64,000 nt of DNA from Magnetospirillum moscoviense (GTDB lineage: Bacteria; Pseudomonadota; Alphaproteobacteria; Rhodospirillales; Magnetospirillaceae): contig NZ_LWQU01000174.1 in the NCBI RefSeq assembly GCF_001650635.1, positions 1-64,000 on the forward strand. Direction: 5' to 3'. This document shows positions 37,570 to 59,211 of this stretch, in pieces. The notes under the pieces are model-generated. The model saw nothing but the letters and a program-made list of their open reading frames with translations. It ran no database searches and had not been told where the DNA came from. The translations under genes were made by a program, and so were the position numbers. How positions within the stretch are numbered: the first letter of the stretch is position 1; each line of letters opens with the position of its first letter.

Positions 37570-38240
37570 ACACCGTCGGACAGGCTGGATAGTCCTTTTG
37601 CATCGCGGATCTCGACGCGGCCGCGATGCAGGCAGACCCAGCCGCGCCGCTCGAATTCCTTGAGCTGGCGGCTGACCACCTCGCGGGCGGTGCCCAGTTC
37701 GACGGCGATTTCCTGGTGGGTGGCGCGGGCGTGGCCGCCGCTATCGGCATGCTGGCGCAGCCAGGCGGCCAGGCGGACATCGACCCGGCCGAAAGCAACT
37801 TCCTCGATCAACATCAGCAAATCGCCGATCCGCGCCGCATAGGCCGAGAACACGAAGTCCCGGAACGCTTCCGAGTGCCCGAGAAGGGTGCGGAAGGTCG
37901 CGGCCGGCAGCACCAACGCGCGGACGTCGGTCTCGGCGATACCCTCGGCGGCATAATCCTCGCGGGCGATCAGGCAATTGGTGGTCAAGACGCAGGATTG
38001 GCCGGATTCCACGCGGTACAGCACGATCTCGCGCCCGTTCTCGGCGACCTTCTGCACGCGGATCGAGCCGTCCATCACCAGGACGTAGCTGGAACATTCG
38101 GCGCCGTCCTGGAACAACACGGTGCCGGCCGGAATGGCGGCGACACGGGCCGAATCGCGCAGCAGCCGGGTGCTGTCGGAATCCAGTTTGGCAAACTGGG
38201 GAAACGAGGCGACGATATCCCCGTCCATCGATCCGCTCAT
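37566..38240 (-). CDS. Crp/Fnr-family transcription regulator
   Basis: The 224-residue regulator has a cNMP-like beta-roll (about 10-120; IPAGTVLFQDGAECSSYVLV), a dimer helix (about 125-150) and a winged helix-turn-helix. The recognition helix lies in ATHQEIAVELGTAREVVSRQLKEFERRGWV (about 170-200). The N-terminal Cys cluster of true Fnr is absent, and the cAMP-contact residues are not obviously kept. This leaves a DNR-like or redox-responsive type as one possibility, with the single Cys in GQSCVLTTNCL notable. It overlaps the upstream ACT-domain gene by four bases (ATGA) and precedes the DUF2892 gene. Confidence 0.88.
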   Translation of the reverse strand: MSGSMDGDIVASFPQFAKLDSDSTRLLRDSARVAAIPAGTVLFQDGAECSSYVLVMDGSIRVQKVAENGREIVLYRVESGQSCVLTTNCLIAREDYAAEGIAETDVRALVLPAATFRTLLGHSEAFRDFVFSAYAARIGDLLMLIEEVAFGRVDVRLAAWLRQHADSGGHARATHQEIAVELGTAREVVSRQLKEFERRGWVCLHRGRVEIRDAKGLSSLSDGV

Positions 38241-38749
38241 GCCGCTTCGATATGGCAGGTCAGGTGCAGCTCGCCGGCGGTATTGGCCACCGTCGCCAGG
38301 CAGGCATCGGCCCGTTCCGTCAGCGATACGGCGAAGCGGGTGATGTAAAGCCCCTGTTCGGGAAGGCGTTGGGCGTCCATGCGAACGATGTTGGCCTTGA
38401 ACTCGCCGAACACCTCGGACAGGCGGGCGACCAGGCCGGGACGGTCGCCGCCCGACACCACCACCCGGTGGGTGATTCGCCCGGCCGGCCCGTGGGCGGA
38501 ATCAAGGTCGAACGACCTGACCGAAATCTGCGCCGCGGCCAGTTCCGGCATCGCTTCCAGCGCGCCTTCGATCTCGAGGGCGTCGATACCGGCCGGCAAT
38601 TCGCAAATCGAGGTGAATTCGGCGCCGGCGCCCAGCATGGCGAAGCTGGTATCGCCCAGATTGGCGCCAAGGTCGAACAGCCTGCCGGTGATCGCGGCGA
38701 TCAGGCCGGTGCGATCGGGGCAGAAGATCGAGATCAGGACGGTGCTCAT
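38237..38749 (-). CDS. Tandem ACT-domain protein (GcvR-like)
   Basis: The 170-residue protein has two ACT domains: residues about 1-75 (VLISIFCPDRTGLIAAITGRLFDLGANLGD) and about 90-165 (HRVVVSGGDRPGLVARLSEVFGEFKANIVRM). It belongs to the GcvR-like group of amino-acid-sensing regulators. These usually bind a small ligand or partner protein and lack their own DNA-binding domain. The start at 38749 is an ATG without a strong ribosome-binding site. Its stop overlaps the start of the Crp/Fnr gene, so the two are translated together; a functional link is possible but unproven. Confidence 0.85.
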   Translation of the reverse strand: MSTVLISIFCPDRTGLIAAITGRLFDLGANLGDTSFAMLGAGAEFTSICELPAGIDALEIEGALEAMPELAAAQISVRSFDLDSAHGPAGRITHRVVVSGGDRPGLVARLSEVFGEFKANIVRMDAQRLPEQGLYITRFAVSLTERADACLATVANTAGELHLTCHIEAA

Positions 38750-38863
38750 GTCAAAGGCCCGCAGCCGTGGAAAACAGGCCCCATCATGCGCCTTGGCCGG
38801 CGGATTGCAACCCACTACCGCGGGCGCGGCGGGGCCGTTATAGTTCGCGCCAGGAGGGGCGGA

Positions 38864-39316
38864 ATGAAGCCGAAAATCGTGATTGGCCTGGTGGTGGCGG
38901 CGGCTGTGGTGGCGGGCATCCTGGCATCGCGACCGTGGCAGCGCTTCAGCCACAGCATCGACCCGCGCGACGCCCAGGCCGTCGCCCAGGGGGCCGACCT
39001 TTATCGCCGCCATTGTGCCGAATGCCACGGCGCCGACCTGAAGGGCGAGCCCGATTGGCGGGTCCGCAAGCCCAACGGCGAATTGCCGGCGCCGCCACAC
39101 GACGAAACCGGCCACACCTGGCACCATAGCGACGAGCAATTGTTCGCCATGACCAAGCACGGCATGAGCCGGTTCGCGCCGCCCGACTACCGTTCGGCCA
39201 TGCCGTCCTTTGTCGGTCGCCTGACCGACCGGGAAATCCGCTCGGTCCTGGCCTATGTCAAGTCGACCTGGCCGGCCGATATTCAGGCGCGCCAGCAACA
39301 ATTGAACTTACGGTGA
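38864..39316 (+). CDS. Membrane-anchored monohaem cytochrome c
   Basis: The 150-residue protein has an N-terminal anchor or uncleaved signal (IVIGLVVAAAVVAGILAS, residues 5-22) and one class I haem site, CAECH (about 52-56). A distal Met follows in YRSAMPSFVGRLTDREIRSVLAYVKSTWP. CAGGAGGGG stands just upstream of the ATG at 38864. It would pass electrons in the periplasm. The partner is not identifiable; no oxidase or dehydrogenase gene lies nearby. A small stem (GGCAA-7-TTGCC, 39346-39362) follows the gene and may aid termination. Confidence 0.9.
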   Translation: MKPKIVIGLVVAAAVVAGILASRPWQRFSHSIDPRDAQAVAQGADLYRRHCAECHGADLKGEPDWRVRKPNGELPAPPHDETGHTWHHSDEQLFAMTKHGMSRFAPPDYRSAMPSFVGRLTDREIRSVLAYVKSTWPADIQARQQQLNLR

Positions 39317-54329: not shown

Positions 54330-55229
54330 ATGTCCGTCAGGCATCCGATCATCGCGGTCACCGGCGCCTCGGGCGCGGGCCGGGAATCCGTCAGGTTCGT
54401 TTTCGACCGTCTGTTCCGACGGGAAGGCATCACCGCCGCCTATGTCGCGGGCGAGAGCTTTCATCGCTTCGACCGGACCGAGTTCAAGGCCGCCGAGGCC
54501 GAAGCCGCCGCCAGCGGCAACCCGCATTTCAGCCATTTCGGTCCCGACGCCAATCTGTTCGACGAGCAGGAGCGTCTTTATCGCGATTACGGCCAAAGCG
54601 GCACCGGCCGGCGGCGTCATTACCTGCACGGCGACGATGACGGCCGCCGGCTCGGCTATCCCGAACTGGGGGGCGGCCGGTTCACGCCCTGGGAGGATTT
54701 GCCGCAAGACACCGACCTGATGCTGTACGAGGGACTGCACGGCGTGGTCCGCGGCGACGGCTTTGATCTTGGCAAACATGTCGATCTGAAGATCGGCATG
54801 GTGCCGATCATCAATCTTGAATGGATCCAGAAGGTCCACCGCGACACCGCCAAGCGCGGCTACTCGCGCGAGGCGGTGATGGACCGCATCCTGCACCGGA
54901 TGCACGATTACACCCATTACATCCTGCCGCAATTCAAGCATTCGGATATCAACTTCCAGCACGTGCCGGTGGTCGATACCTCGGAGCCGTTCATCGCCCG
55001 TGACATTCCTGCGGTGGACGAGCGGGTGGTGGTGATCCGCTTTCGAAAGCCCGAGGAAATGGGCGTGGATTTCCCGCTGCTGCTGAGAAAGATCGCCGGC
55101 TCGTGGATGACCCGGCGCAATACGCTGGTGGTGCCCGGCGGCAAGCGTGAACTGGCCAAGGAACTGATCCTGACCCCGATCTTGCGCCGGCTGATGGACC
55201 GCCGCGCCGAGGTCAGGGGAGCGGCCTGA
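54330..55229 (+). CDS. prkB: Phosphoribulokinase
   Basis: The 299-residue protein is of the bacterial (class I) phosphoribulokinase family, which makes ribulose-1,5-bisphosphate. Family segments are VAGESFHRFDRTEFK, HFSHFGPDANLFDEQERLY, YGQSGTGRRRHYLH, LMLYEGLHGVVRGD, VPIINLEWIQKVHRDTAKRG and NTLVVPGGKRELAKELIL. The ATP loop reads GASGAGRES (12-20), whereas relatives normally have GSSGAGT followed by Ser/Thr residues; Arg18 and Glu19 replace small hydroxyl residues, so activity is uncertain. No RuBisCO or other Calvin-cycle gene is nearby. GGGAGGCAGGA precedes the ATG. Confidence 0.88.
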   Translation: MSVRHPIIAVTGASGAGRESVRFVFDRLFRREGITAAYVAGESFHRFDRTEFKAAEAEAAASGNPHFSHFGPDANLFDEQERLYRDYGQSGTGRRRHYLHGDDDGRRLGYPELGGGRFTPWEDLPQDTDLMLYEGLHGVVRGDGFDLGKHVDLKIGMVPIINLEWIQKVHRDTAKRGYSREAVMDRILHRMHDYTHYILPQFKHSDINFQHVPVVDTSEPFIARDIPAVDERVVVIRFRKPEEMGVDFPLLLRKIAGSWMTRRNTLVVPGGKRELAKELILTPILRRLMDRRAEVRGAA

Positions 55230-55252
55230 TTTCAGGTCTTGGCAAGAAACAG

Positions 55253-55281
55253 GGCGGCTTTCCCGAAGGAGCCGCCCTTGT
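55253..55281 (+). terminator. Intrinsic terminator after the phosphoribulokinase gene
   Basis: GGGCGGCT (55253-55260) pairs with AGCCGCCC (55271-55278) around a ten-base loop and is followed by TTGTT. It lies 23 bases after the kinase stop. The stem is perfect and GC-rich. The short T-rich tail makes it the best intrinsic terminator in the window, and it isolates the next gene transcriptionally. Confidence 0.7.
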
Positions 55282-55285
55282 TGCC

Positions 55286-58200
55286 ATGCGCAATTGTCGC
55301 ATAATGCATATTATGACGTTTATCGTGACGCCCTCATCTGGTACGCCTGCTGGTGACCATGGTCATCGTGATCGGGACGGCCACCTAAGCCCGGTGATGC
55401 CCGACTGGGCCGCCTTGGGCGAAAGTGGTCGCCCCGTGACCATGGTTGTCCGTATCGACACCTCGATGGCACGCCTGAACGCCACCGAACTCGTCAAAAG
55501 TCTTGGCGCCCAGGTCGAGCGCTGGCACGCGGCCGGAGTAAGCCTGGCTGGGCTGGAGATCGACCACGACAGCCCAACGGCCCGGTTACCAGAATATGGC
55601 GCCTTCCTGCGTCTCGTGCGTCGCGAATTTTCGTTGCCGCTTTCGGTGACCGCGCTGCCGACCTGGCTAGAGGCGCCGGCCTTCGATCAAATCATCGCTG
55701 TCGCCGACGAAGTGGTTTTGCAGGTTCACGCGGTCCGCCAACCCGTCCGGGGCGAAGGTCTGTTCAGCCCGAGCAACGCCATGGCGTGGCAGAAGCGGAT
55801 GGCGTCGCGCAGTACCAAGCCGTTTCGCCTGGCCCTGCCCGCCTATGGAACCCGCATCGGTCGCGACGAGGATGGTTCGGTGGTGGTGGTGGAAAGCGAG
55901 GCCCCGGCACCAGGGGGCGCGCATTCCGAGGAATTGGTGGTTGCACCCGCCGAAGTTCGCAGGTTCCTGGACGACCTTCGGGGCAATCCCGCGCGCAATC
56001 TGGCCGGAATCGTATGGTTTCGCCTGCCCAATACCGCCGATCGCCGTGCCTGGAGCCTCGCCACGTTACGCGCCGTTATCAACGGCATGCCAGTGAATGG
56101 CAACGCGCACGTGATGGTGGAAGACAGCGACACTGGGGCCGGCATCTTATTGCTCGCCAATAACGGCGTCACTGACGCTCGCTTGCCCCATCGACTGGTC
56201 CTGCCCGCCGGCTGCGGCCATGCTGGCGGAGCTAATGGATATCACCTGGACACCGACGGCAGGACCTTGATCCGGGGGCGCGACGGCTTGCTGCGCATGG
56301 CGAGCGCCGTCTCCATCGCCTGCGTCATGGATGTGACGCCCAACATGCTCGATGACCGCGACGCGTCGGTACGTGAACCGATCACCCACAGTTTCTCGTT
56401 TGAACTGCGAGCGATGCACGGCGCGCCGAAGGACGAGCTGAGGTTTCGTGACGTCTGCCACTGGCCCGAGACCCCTGAGGCTTGCGCGATTCGCATCGAG
56501 AGCGATGGGCTCAGTCCCCGGCAGGTCGCTACGCTCAAGACGGTCCGCGCGAGCAATGGCGACGCGTTCGAGGCGGCCGACGGCTTGCCGATTGCTGTCC
56601 GCCACTATGTGGCCGGTGCCAAAGCCTTCCACGCCAAGCGGTGGGACCAGGCGGCAGAACATTTCCACGCCATCCAGACCCTGCCCGAGGAGGCAGCAAG
56701 GCCGCGCCTGGTGTGGGCCACCTACATGCTGGGCCGTACCTTGGTGGCCCAGGGGCGCGAGATTGAAGCCGCGCCGCAATTTGCCGCTACTCGCGCCCTG
56801 GCGTTGCGTGGCCTGCCCGACCCACACGGGTTGGCGGTCGCCAGCCTCGGCGAGGAAGCGCGCATCCATTTTCGCCGCGCCAAGGCGCTGCTGGAGGACA
56901 GTGTGCTGGCCCCGGAAAAAGCGGCCGCCTACACCTCGGCCATGACCCTGGCGGCGACCTTGTATCTCGATCAGTCGGTGCGCGATGACCAGGGCGGCAC
57001 GGCCTCGCTACGCGCCATGGTCCGCCATTTGCGCGGCCACCGCAGCATCGCCGAGGCGGCGGTGCGTCATCCGCTGCTGCGCCGCCTGATGGTCGCCAAC
57101 ACGCTGGCCGATTTCCTGTGGTCGGTCCCCGACCCCGATGAGTCCCCCGTCGATGATTCCTGGAATTTTCCCGACGCGGGAGTCGATGCCTCGGCGCTGG
57201 CGGTCCTGGTGGCCGAAGCTGTGCATGACGAGCCCGGGCCGGTGCCCGACTTGGACCGGCTGGCTGCCCTGGCCTACCACCAGGCGCGTTACGACCTGGC
57301 TGCCCAATTGGTGGAAAGAGCCCACGGCCCCATGGCCGCCTGGGTGCGCGCAAAGTTGGCCTTGCAGGGCGGCGACGAAGCCGCTGCCGCGCGCCATTAC
57401 GCCGAGGCCGCCAAGGCCTTCCCCGCTTCGACCGCCAATCCGCTGGACCAGGCCGGCATGAACCGTATCCAGGCCGAGACCGGCGTGCTGGCCTTCTCGC
57501 GCGGCGAATATACCCAGGCGATGTTGCTGCTGATGAATAAAGGTCATTGGGGCGACGTCGCCGCCATCGGCGAGCGGGTTCTGACATTGAACGAACTGAA
57601 AACCTTCGTGGATGCACGTCCGGCCCTCCATCTTAGCGGTGGAGACGACGCGAACCTGCGGGACTTACTGGCCCGCCGGCTGGTCCGTACCCACCGAATC
57701 GCCGACGCACTGCCCTATTTCGCCAGTGACGATGTGCGCGCCAAGGCTGCCGAGTATCTTGCGACGCTCAAGGACGCCGAGGGAAGCTGGAGCAGGCTGG
57801 CGCGTGGCGAGGCGTGGTACCGGGCCGCCGTACTTGCCCGCATTTGGGGCATGAAGATGATGGGGACCGAGGGGGCGCCGGACCATGCCGATTGGCAAAG
57901 CCGGAACTGCTGCGTCGCCGAGATAGAGCCTGCCAACGACGAGGAGCGCAAGCGAATGGAAGCCGACCCGGCCAAGCCTTTCGCGCGGTTCCATTACCGC
58001 TATATCGCGGTCGATCACGCACAGAAGGCGGCCGACATGCTGCCGCCGCGCTCGCAGGCTTTTGCCGCCGTTCTTTGCCACGCTTCGGATTGGATGCAGC
58101 AGACCTGGGAAATGGGCAGATCCTGGGATATCTACCAGCGTTACGTCCGCGAAGGAGCCCATGTCCCCTTCGCCCGGCATTTTGGCCGTAAATGTCCAAC

Positions 58201-58381
58201 CCCAGACTTTGCCGCAGCCCCGGCCAGTGAACGCCGCCTGATGATTCTCAAGGCCCGCAATTTTCTCTCCGCCAACCGCTGGTGGGCGGCGGGATTGTTA
58301 GCGACGGTCCTGGCTGTCACTGGTTGGTGGCTGGTTCATCGACGCCGCACTTTTTGCCATCATTGCACCAAGTCCCAATAA
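55286..58381 (+). CDS. DUF3142-TPR fusion with C-terminal membrane anchor, function unknown
   Basis: This 1031-residue protein has three parts. Residues about 39-350 match the DUF3142 pattern, probably a TIM-barrel-like fold: WAALGESGRPVTMVVRID, LAGLEIDHDSPTARLPEYG, LSVTALPTWLEA, ADEVVLQVHAVRQPV, RLALPAYGTRIG and GIVWFRLPNTADRRAW. Residues about 430-980 are helical and alanine-rich with TPR-like pairs (AKAFHAKRWDQAAEHFHAIQ, YHQARYDLAAQLVERAH, GEYTQAMLLLMNKGHWGDVA). Residues about 998-1017 (WWAAGLLATVLAVTGWWLV) form a membrane helix with a basic Cys-containing tail. DUF3142 proteins usually begin with a signal peptide and a further N-terminal segment before the W..L...GRPV motif; only 38 unrelated residues precede it here. 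The start is therefore doubtful (ATGs at 55286, 55304, 55313 and 55397) and the gene may be 5'-truncated. It follows the kinase terminator and has no operon partner. Confidence 0.75.
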   Translation: MRNCRIMHIMTFIVTPSSGTPAGDHGHRDRDGHLSPVMPDWAALGESGRPVTMVVRIDTSMARLNATELVKSLGAQVERWHAAGVSLAGLEIDHDSPTARLPEYGAFLRLVRREFSLPLSVTALPTWLEAPAFDQIIAVADEVVLQVHAVRQPVRGEGLFSPSNAMAWQKRMASRSTKPFRLALPAYGTRIGRDEDGSVVVVESEAPAPGGAHSEELVVAPAEVRRFLDDLRGNPARNLAGIVWFRLPNTADRRAWSLATLRAVINGMPVNGNAHVMVEDSDTGAGILLLANNGVTDARLPHRLVLPAGCGHAGGANGYHLDTDGRTLIRGRDGLLRMASAVSIACVMDVTPNMLDDRDASVREPITHSFSFELRAMHGAPKDELRFRDVCHWPETPEACAIRIESDGLSPRQVATLKTVRASNGDAFEAADGLPIAVRHYVAGAKAFHAKRWDQAAEHFHAIQTLPEEAARPRLVWATYMLGRTLVAQGREIEAAPQFAATRALALRGLPDPHGLAVASLGEEARIHFRRAKALLEDSVLAPEKAAAYTSAMTLAATLYLDQSVRDDQGGTASLRAMVRHLRGHRSIAEAAVRHPLLRRLMVANTLADFLWSVPDPDESPVDDSWNFPDAGVDASALAVLVAEAVHDEPGPVPDLDRLAALAYHQARYDLAAQLVERAHGPMAAWVRAKLALQGGDEAAAARHYAEAAKAFPASTANPLDQAGMNRIQAETGVLAFSRGEYTQAMLLLMNKGHWGDVAAIGERVLTLNELKTFVDARPALHLSGGDDANLRDLLARRLVRTHRIADALPYFASDDVRAKAAEYLATLKDAEGSWSRLARGEAWYRAAVLARIWGMKMMGTEGAPDHADWQSRNCCVAEIEPANDEERKRMEADPAKPFARFHYRYIAVDHAQKAADMLPPRSQAFAAVLCHASDWMQQTWEMGRSWDIYQRYVREGAHVPFARHFGRKCPTPDFAAAPASERRLMILKARNFLSANRWWAAGLLATVLAVTGWWLVHRRRTFCHHCTKSQ

Positions 58382-58437: not shown

Positions 58438-59211
58438 TCACCCGGGCAGGCTGATCCTTAGCCCGTCATGGGCCGGGGCCACTCCGGCCGGCAGCCTGGC
58501 CTTCAGGGCCTGGTAATCCAAGGACGGCGTCATGTGGGTCAGCCAGGCCTGGCGCGGCTTGATCCGCTTGATCCATTCCAGCACCTTATCAAGATGGGCG
58601 TGGGTCGGATGCGGGGCCAGGGTCAGGCAGCCGACGATCCAGGTGTCGATGCCGGCCAGCGCGGCGAAGCTTTCCTCCGGCAGATCGACCACGTCGGTCG
58701 AATAAGCCAGCGGGCCGAAGCGATAGCCGGTGGTGCGGCAATAGCCGTGATCCTGGTCGAACGACACCACCTCGATATCGCCAACAGTAAAGCTGGGCTG
58801 CAATTCGGTGAAATCCAGCATCGGCTTGTAGATGGTCTGGCCCTCTTCCACCGCGCCCACCACATAGGCGAACCGGGTGCGGATCGAGGCCAGCACGTCG
58901 GGGCTGCCGAACACCGGGAACGGCTTGCCCATGGCGCGGTTGACCTCGCGCAGATCGTCGATGCCGTGCAGATGGTCGGCATGGTCGTGGGTGTAGAGCA
59001 CCCCGTCCAGCCGAGCGATGCCGGCACCCAGCAATTGCTCGCGGCAATCGGGCGAGGTATCGACCAGAAGAGTGGTCGTTTCGGACTCGACCAGAATCGA
59101 CGGCCGCAGCCGGCGGTTCTTCGGATTGGCCGGATCGCACAAGCCCCACCCCCGCGAGATCGACGGCACACCGCCGGCCGAACCGCACCCGAGGATGGTG
59201 GCCGAAATCAT
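58438..59211 (-). CDS. MBL-fold metallohydrolase (PhnP-like)
   Basis: The 257-residue protein has the metallo-beta-lactamase fold with LGCGSAGGVPSISRGWGLCD at the N-terminus, THDHADHLHGIDDLR (HxHxDH metal site, about 74-79), YSTDVVDLP (metal Asp) and a late LTHM. It is similar to PhnP, a cyclic ribose phosphodiesterase, and to related phosphodiesterases; there is no phn cluster here, so the substrate is open. Its start overlaps the tatD stop by four bases, so it ends the dac-tmk-holB-metG-tatD transcript, an order common in alphaproteobacteria. Confidence 0.9.
   Translation of the reverse strand: MISATILGCGSAGGVPSISRGWGLCDPANPKNRRLRPSILVESETTTLLVDTSPDCREQLLGAGIARLDGVLYTHDHADHLHGIDDLREVNRAMGKPFPVFGSPDVLASIRTRFAYVVGAVEEGQTIYKPMLDFTELQPSFTVGDIEVVSFDQDHGYCRTTGYRFGPLAYSTDVVDLPEESFAALAGIDTWIVGCLTLAPHPTHAHLDKVLEWIKRIKPRQAWLTHMTPSLDYQALKARLPAGVAPAHDGLRISLPG

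Follow-up and report, generated by a model that had tools for sequence, protein, structure and literature searches.

A merged and truncated DUF3142–TPR gene pair in Magnetospirillum moscoviense, probably a young pseudogene

DUF3142 proteins and their two-gene module

In the portions of the literature covered by our search, the term DUF3142 turns up in a single paper, as a cluster-table entry beside a hypothetical protein. A solved DUF3142 protein is TfeC (PDB 8y6t and 9vtv), and the profile of the relatives described below matches 8y6t (1.9e-12). Modelled with AlphaFold, the intact relative L022 (mean pLDDT 92.6) forms an eight-stranded GH18-like barrel that resembles TfeC. It is also similar to GH18 chitinases and to the spore cortex-lytic enzyme SleL (the first structure listed is 4q6t, with Z 21.5 and rmsd 3.6 over 254 residues); at an identity of 11–17% between these proteins and the DUF3142 proteins this is a likeness of fold only, and an activity on glycan is putative.

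We analyzed a window of 64,000 nucleotides from M. moscoviense (contig NZ_LWQU01000174.1, positions 1 to 64,000), in which a DUF3142 part and a TPR-family part lie in one frame, and compared it with the arrangement elsewhere. A class-level search of 385 genomes gave a match in 12, the window's own genome counted, and in four others (G119, G173, G353, G392) the two parts adjoin in separate frames. GTDB species genomes were scanned with a single conserved peptide pattern, so that relatives lacking it would be missed; among the 387 stretches obtained were 371 relatives, and the top 80 of these were retained. One of 72,556 plasmid records contained a further locus (Xanthomonas sacchari, NZ_CP010410.1). 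At none of these 81 loci (the best 80 of 371 relatives plus the plasmid locus) was a fusion found. Both parts were matched at 78 of them, never within one frame, two of the DUF3142 matches (L038, L099) being unconvincing. This is the comparison with species having separate genes that the initial annotation had proposed. For 58 neighbouring pairs the analyst assigned a start to each gene, the YVWQ-type block also serving to choose starts; 48 of these pairs overlap, and the spacing has a median of -14 nt (range -32 to 73).

The DUF3142 relatives share the block YVWQR.WTP ... WRVLAAE, and the motif CGPxFP after the leader is common to the TPR relatives. By hydropathy threshold, an N-terminal leader is present in 59 of 71 DUF3142 relatives and in all 67 TPR relatives, and a C-terminal helix in 58 of the 67; left out of these samples were seven of the 78 DUF3142 frames (two cut by a contig end, three that contain the block but were given no start, two unconvincing) and 14 of the 81 TPR frames, which have a variant of the motif or were given no start. 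The TPR family profile matches TPR proteins of known structure, the best being a designed TPR protein (2.4e-17). Among ten neighbouring ORFs at eight loci no common functional theme was found; a symporter adjoins both Rhizomicrobium loci (L023 and L025). The intact module probably comprises an exported GH18-like protein and an inner-membrane TPR protein acting jointly on a glycan in the periplasm, the latter probably held via its C-terminal helix with the basic tail inside. A by-product of this comparison is the normal anatomy of a little-described envelope module, in which a GH18-like DUF3142 protein is paired with a TPR protein that ends in a C-terminal helix.

The merged frame and its missing segments

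The frame at 55286–58381 (+ strand) starts with ATG and comprises 1031 codons with no internal stop, so that coordinates, codon count and openness agree with the initial annotation. It contains the single DUF3142 match of the 4.16-Mb genome (Pfam PF11340, residues 48–249, E-value 1.9e-60, 204.8 bits versus a cut-off of 30, model positions 2–201 of 202), and the DUF3142 domain proposed earlier is thereby confirmed. Beyond DUF3142, no match of the protein exceeded the Pfam cut-offs and no TPR was called; the profile search suggested for both halves thus succeeded in Pfam for the first only, the second being recognized by the family profile that fits TPR proteins. The TPR-like region read earlier stands as a TPR-family part, with a length of about 685 residues (346–1031) instead of about 550, and its homology to the TPR partner spans the mature protein and the C-terminal helix. 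Identity to the best relative is about 40–42% in the best segment among the matches listed. These domains are more than a chance occurrence. Gene order and both parts are as in the modules of the X. sacchari plasmid, Rhizomicrobium, Azospirillum and Achromobacter, but these relatives have two genes with two leaders, whereas the window has one frame and no leader. The features are collected in Table 1.

Table 1. Features at and around the merged frame (positions in the window).
Feature	Coordinates	Strand	Remark
Neighbouring phosphoribulokinase-family gene	54330..55229	+	PF00485, 2.4e-57
Hairpin GGGCGGCT ... AGCCGCCC, 3' of the phosphoribulokinase gene	55252..55277	+	read from sequence
First 28 codons of the frame	55286..55369	+	family match absent; codon score negative over codons 1–38
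dif by sequence match, XerCD chromosome-dimer resolution site; residues 4–12 if translated	55294..55321	+	23/28 vs AMB-1 dif
DUF3142 part, residues 29–335; leader and barrel strands 1–2 (the initial ~60 positions of the family) missing	55370..56290	+	
Junction, residues 336–358: DUF3142 tail into end of the TPR protein's leader	56291..56359	+	
TPR-family part, residues 359–1031 and stop	56360..58381	+	
C-terminal hydrophobic helix, residues 999–1017	58280..58336	+	
Neighbouring MBL-fold hydrolase gene, 3' side toward dif	58438..59211	-	PF12706, 5.8e-34

The C-terminal segment is moderately hydrophobic (Kyte-Doolittle mean 1.54, the top 19-residue value of the whole protein) and is followed by HRRR and then by the CHHC tail. 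The final membrane helix noted earlier is thus present, but its anatomy is not unusual given its frequency in the TPR relatives, and because the family as a rule shares both this helix and the basic tail, the idea of a different anchoring or topology was dropped. The CHHC tail (TFCHHCTKSQ, 58340–58378) is not common to the aligned relatives. The GC3 of the last 31 codons of the frame is only 0.58.

At the other end, a strongly hydrophobic N-terminal leader is absent, as the initial annotation had stated. A profile built from the N-terminal ends of the relatives aligns with the frame only from profile position 61, at residue 29, so that fewer than the 38 unrelated residues counted earlier precede the family match, and some of these are encoded by dif. 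Between the end of dif (55321) and the start of this match lie 48 nt, while the sixty missing positions need about 180 nt, which leaves a shortfall of about 130 nt in the window. The DUF3142 part lacks the leader and the YVWQ...WRVLAAE block. A YVWQ-type strand-1 block is carried by 74 of the 78 DUF3142 matches beside TPR relatives (best 80 of 371 plus plasmid); the other four, inspected individually, are two cut by a contig end and the two unconvincing ones. The earlier suggestion that the 5' end was lost is thus supported, but the nearest landmark is dif and not the hairpin behind the phosphoribulokinase gene, which a terminator scan did not list. A promoter scan found none (0.4 expected), and no Shine-Dalgarno sequence was scored for the frame, which is uninformative since the same holds for nine of 12 other ORFs of the window.

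The full-length Pfam match hides this loss because the Pfam model begins after the real N-terminus of the family; in an intact relative the match begins at residue 82. In the L022 model, strand 1 (28–32) and strand 2 (54–62) fall in the segment lost from the window. The model of the window's DUF3142 part keeps six of the eight strands (3–8, by the analyst's count); residues 1–26 have a pLDDT below 50, and confidence is high elsewhere (mean pLDDT 87.0). Against the GH18 chitinases and SleL this version gives Z 15.7 and rmsd 5.1 over 238 residues, with an incomplete barrel. The acidic residues E91, D93 and D95, which are invariant across a 39-row alignment and intact in the window, are located on strand 4, where GH18 enzymes carry their catalytic acids. 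Compared with TfeC and the DUF3142 family, the DUF3142 part of the frame lacks the leader and strands 1–2 and is merged with the downstream gene.

Two candidate remnants of the lost segment were considered and are leads at most. A hydrophobic stretch in frame +1 (55332–55385) has coding-like codon scores, but 43 of 6390 chunk-frames of the window are equally hydrophobic, real coding frames counted. The strand-1-like sequence DALIWYACW in frame +2, just 3' of dif, is equalled or exceeded by 125 of the 6390 chunk-frames with a short strand-1 profile and by 663 with a longer one. Neither was significant after these controls, and because the two stretches overlap (55321–55385), at most one could be right.

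As the two parts are normally encoded by adjacent genes, their fusion is a second lesion. The stretch between the GW codon in the DUF3142 tail and the Cys codon of the TPR partner measures 94–195 nt (median 106) in 58 relatives. In the window, both points fall at residue 346 by two alignments, a spacing of 0. Compared with the relatives, the window is thus short of 94 nt or more at the junction, comprising the DUF3142 stop, the overlap or spacer and the TPR start. A one-base frameshift in the 14-nt overlap was ruled out as the cause of the fusion by this deficit. An assembly or sequencing fault in a strain with two normal genes is most improbable: the genome is a draft of 207 contigs, but base errors do not remove at least 94 nt at the junction plus about 130 nt at the 5' end.

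There is little chance that the TPR half alone works from an internal start with a leader remnant (residues 334–346) while the DUF3142 half is dead. The hydrophobic GLLRMASAVSIAC... is retained (best mean 1.71 over 15 residues within 326–365) and the TPR family profile matches from its position 13, but the first 12 leader positions, including start and basic residues, are unmatched, and the CGPxFP motif is altered to CVMDVT.

The dif sequence and its variable cargo

The dif-site table of PMC2731167, cited here for that table, includes the dif of Magnetospirillum magneticum AMB-1. Its reverse complement shares 23 of 28 bases with 55294–55321, compared with 18 of 28 at the second-best position of the window, and by this sequence match to a published relative the element CGCATAATGCATATTATG within the first codons of the frame is dif. 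A dif core with up to three mismatches is present in 11 of 13 genomes of the genus, the own genome counted; the two without it are 79% and 95% complete. Three genomes have extra core matches elsewhere, with three mismatches, and a reversed control pattern gave one match each in two genomes, the own among them. No clear GC-skew switch was found within the 64 kb.

At all 11 loci from ten other genomes of the genus, the MBL-fold gene has its 3' side toward dif, which is about 0.02 to 7.1 kb away. The cargo in between includes a glycine-transporter-family protein (by Pfam in L136 and L137; alike by eye in L133, L135 and L140) or genes for a histidine kinase and a response regulator (Pfam in L131, L133 and L134; by eye in L130 and L132), and in L138 and L139 there is no frame of 120 codons. 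Because the cargo differs among these loci, the slot beside dif is variable, and the merged frame is its cargo here; a conserved dif with variable cargo alongside is a second by-product of this study. On the far side of dif, a MazG gene is present at four of the 11 loci and in the window. A phosphoribulokinase-family gene separates MazG and dif in the window and was not found at the four other MazG loci.

This variability recalls IMEX, elements integrated at dif by the host XerCD: in both, the cargo near dif varies, here between species of the genus. The window lacks a second dif copy, and an Xer-mediated entry is hypothetical here.

Besides the window's genome, DUF3142 was found in none of 98 relatives, 12 of them from the same genus. 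Horizontal transfer into the slot is probably a simpler reading than loss in the relatives. In trees of both parts (72 and 68 tips), the window sequence has the third longest terminal branch and no close partner; some intact relatives are also on long branches. Foreign origin based on low GC3 and a low codon score was withdrawn as the comparison was biased: the low-GC3 contrast was built in because a GC3 above 0.78 had been the criterion for choosing the 31 genes compared. Among ten window frames omitted earlier, six have Pfam families, and four of these six have a GC3 of 0.740–0.771 or 0.694, the latter value belonging to an over-long TatD frame; the frame from 55370 to 58378 has 0.764. Composition says nothing on a foreign origin. 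Within the frame, with the same codon table, the codon score is -0.61 per codon for codons 1–38 and 0.16 to 0.36 for later parts. The Pfam-positive pair at 38240–39316 (GC3 0.740 and 0.757) consists of overlapping frames on opposite strands, with cytochrome c on the + strand and ACT domains on the - strand.

Decay versus function

We regard the frame as a merged, beheaded pair of normally separate exported-protein genes beside dif and as a young pseudogene, with a probability of roughly 0.65. Horizontal transfer would have brought a two-gene envelope module into the variable slot that dif and the MBL-fold gene delimit. The DUF3142 gene would have been cut close to dif, with loss of start, leader and barrel strands 1–2, and a second deletion of roughly 95–120 nt may have removed the DUF3142 stop and the partner start and so created one frame, which has not met a stop yet. 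The product, if made, should remain cytoplasmic with an incomplete barrel because the N-terminal leader is gone, and we infer that export and function are lost.

In favour of decay are the damage to both leaders, the incomplete barrel, the change in the near-invariant CGPxFP motif and an architecture that none of the relatives shows. Against decay speak the intact acidic residues of strand 4 and the lack of any stop or frameshift over the 994 codons that begin at 55397. In four mutation models, 2.8–3.5% of substitutions are nonsense, and once divergence reaches about 3% a frame of this length would stay open with a probability of 0.05. The open frame therefore limits neutral divergence to about 3%, with which a young pseudogene with two deletions is compatible, and the chance that one deletion leaves the frame open is about one in three. 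As an argument for continued selection, the long frame is thus weaker than the initial annotation had taken it to be. Of the core sites conserved in 95% of relatives, the window is changed at 3 of 48 (DUF3142) and 8 of 95 (TPR), more than in most relatives, since 3 of 71 and 1 of 67 of them, respectively, have as many changes or more; this excess is mild, and a high score is expected because the window sequence has no close relatives in the set.

That the largely retained core sites, the 1031 open codons and the confident DUF3142 prediction outside residues 1–26 reflect a functional fusion seems rather unlikely. In such a leaderless cytoplasmic pair, the incomplete barrel and the TPR part would provide a scaffold for binding, and the C-terminal helix might serve as a tail anchor. 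It would be unique among the 81 loci and would have a barrel without two of its eight strands. The basic HRRR after the helix would disfavour tail insertion, and this tail is also present in relatives whose large part is expected outside. The more specific case of a living fusion translated from a start at or inside dif, with the Xer site giving the start codon and the first residues of a cytoplasmic product, is very doubtful; if true, a dimer-resolution site would have been captured as the start of a gene, and two proteins of the periplasm would have been redirected to the cytoplasm. For a young pseudogene, as we prefer to read it, the locus also bears on annotation: from the full Pfam match and the thousand-codon frame, an automatic procedure would report a new domain architecture, while the losses fall outside the coverage of the Pfam model.
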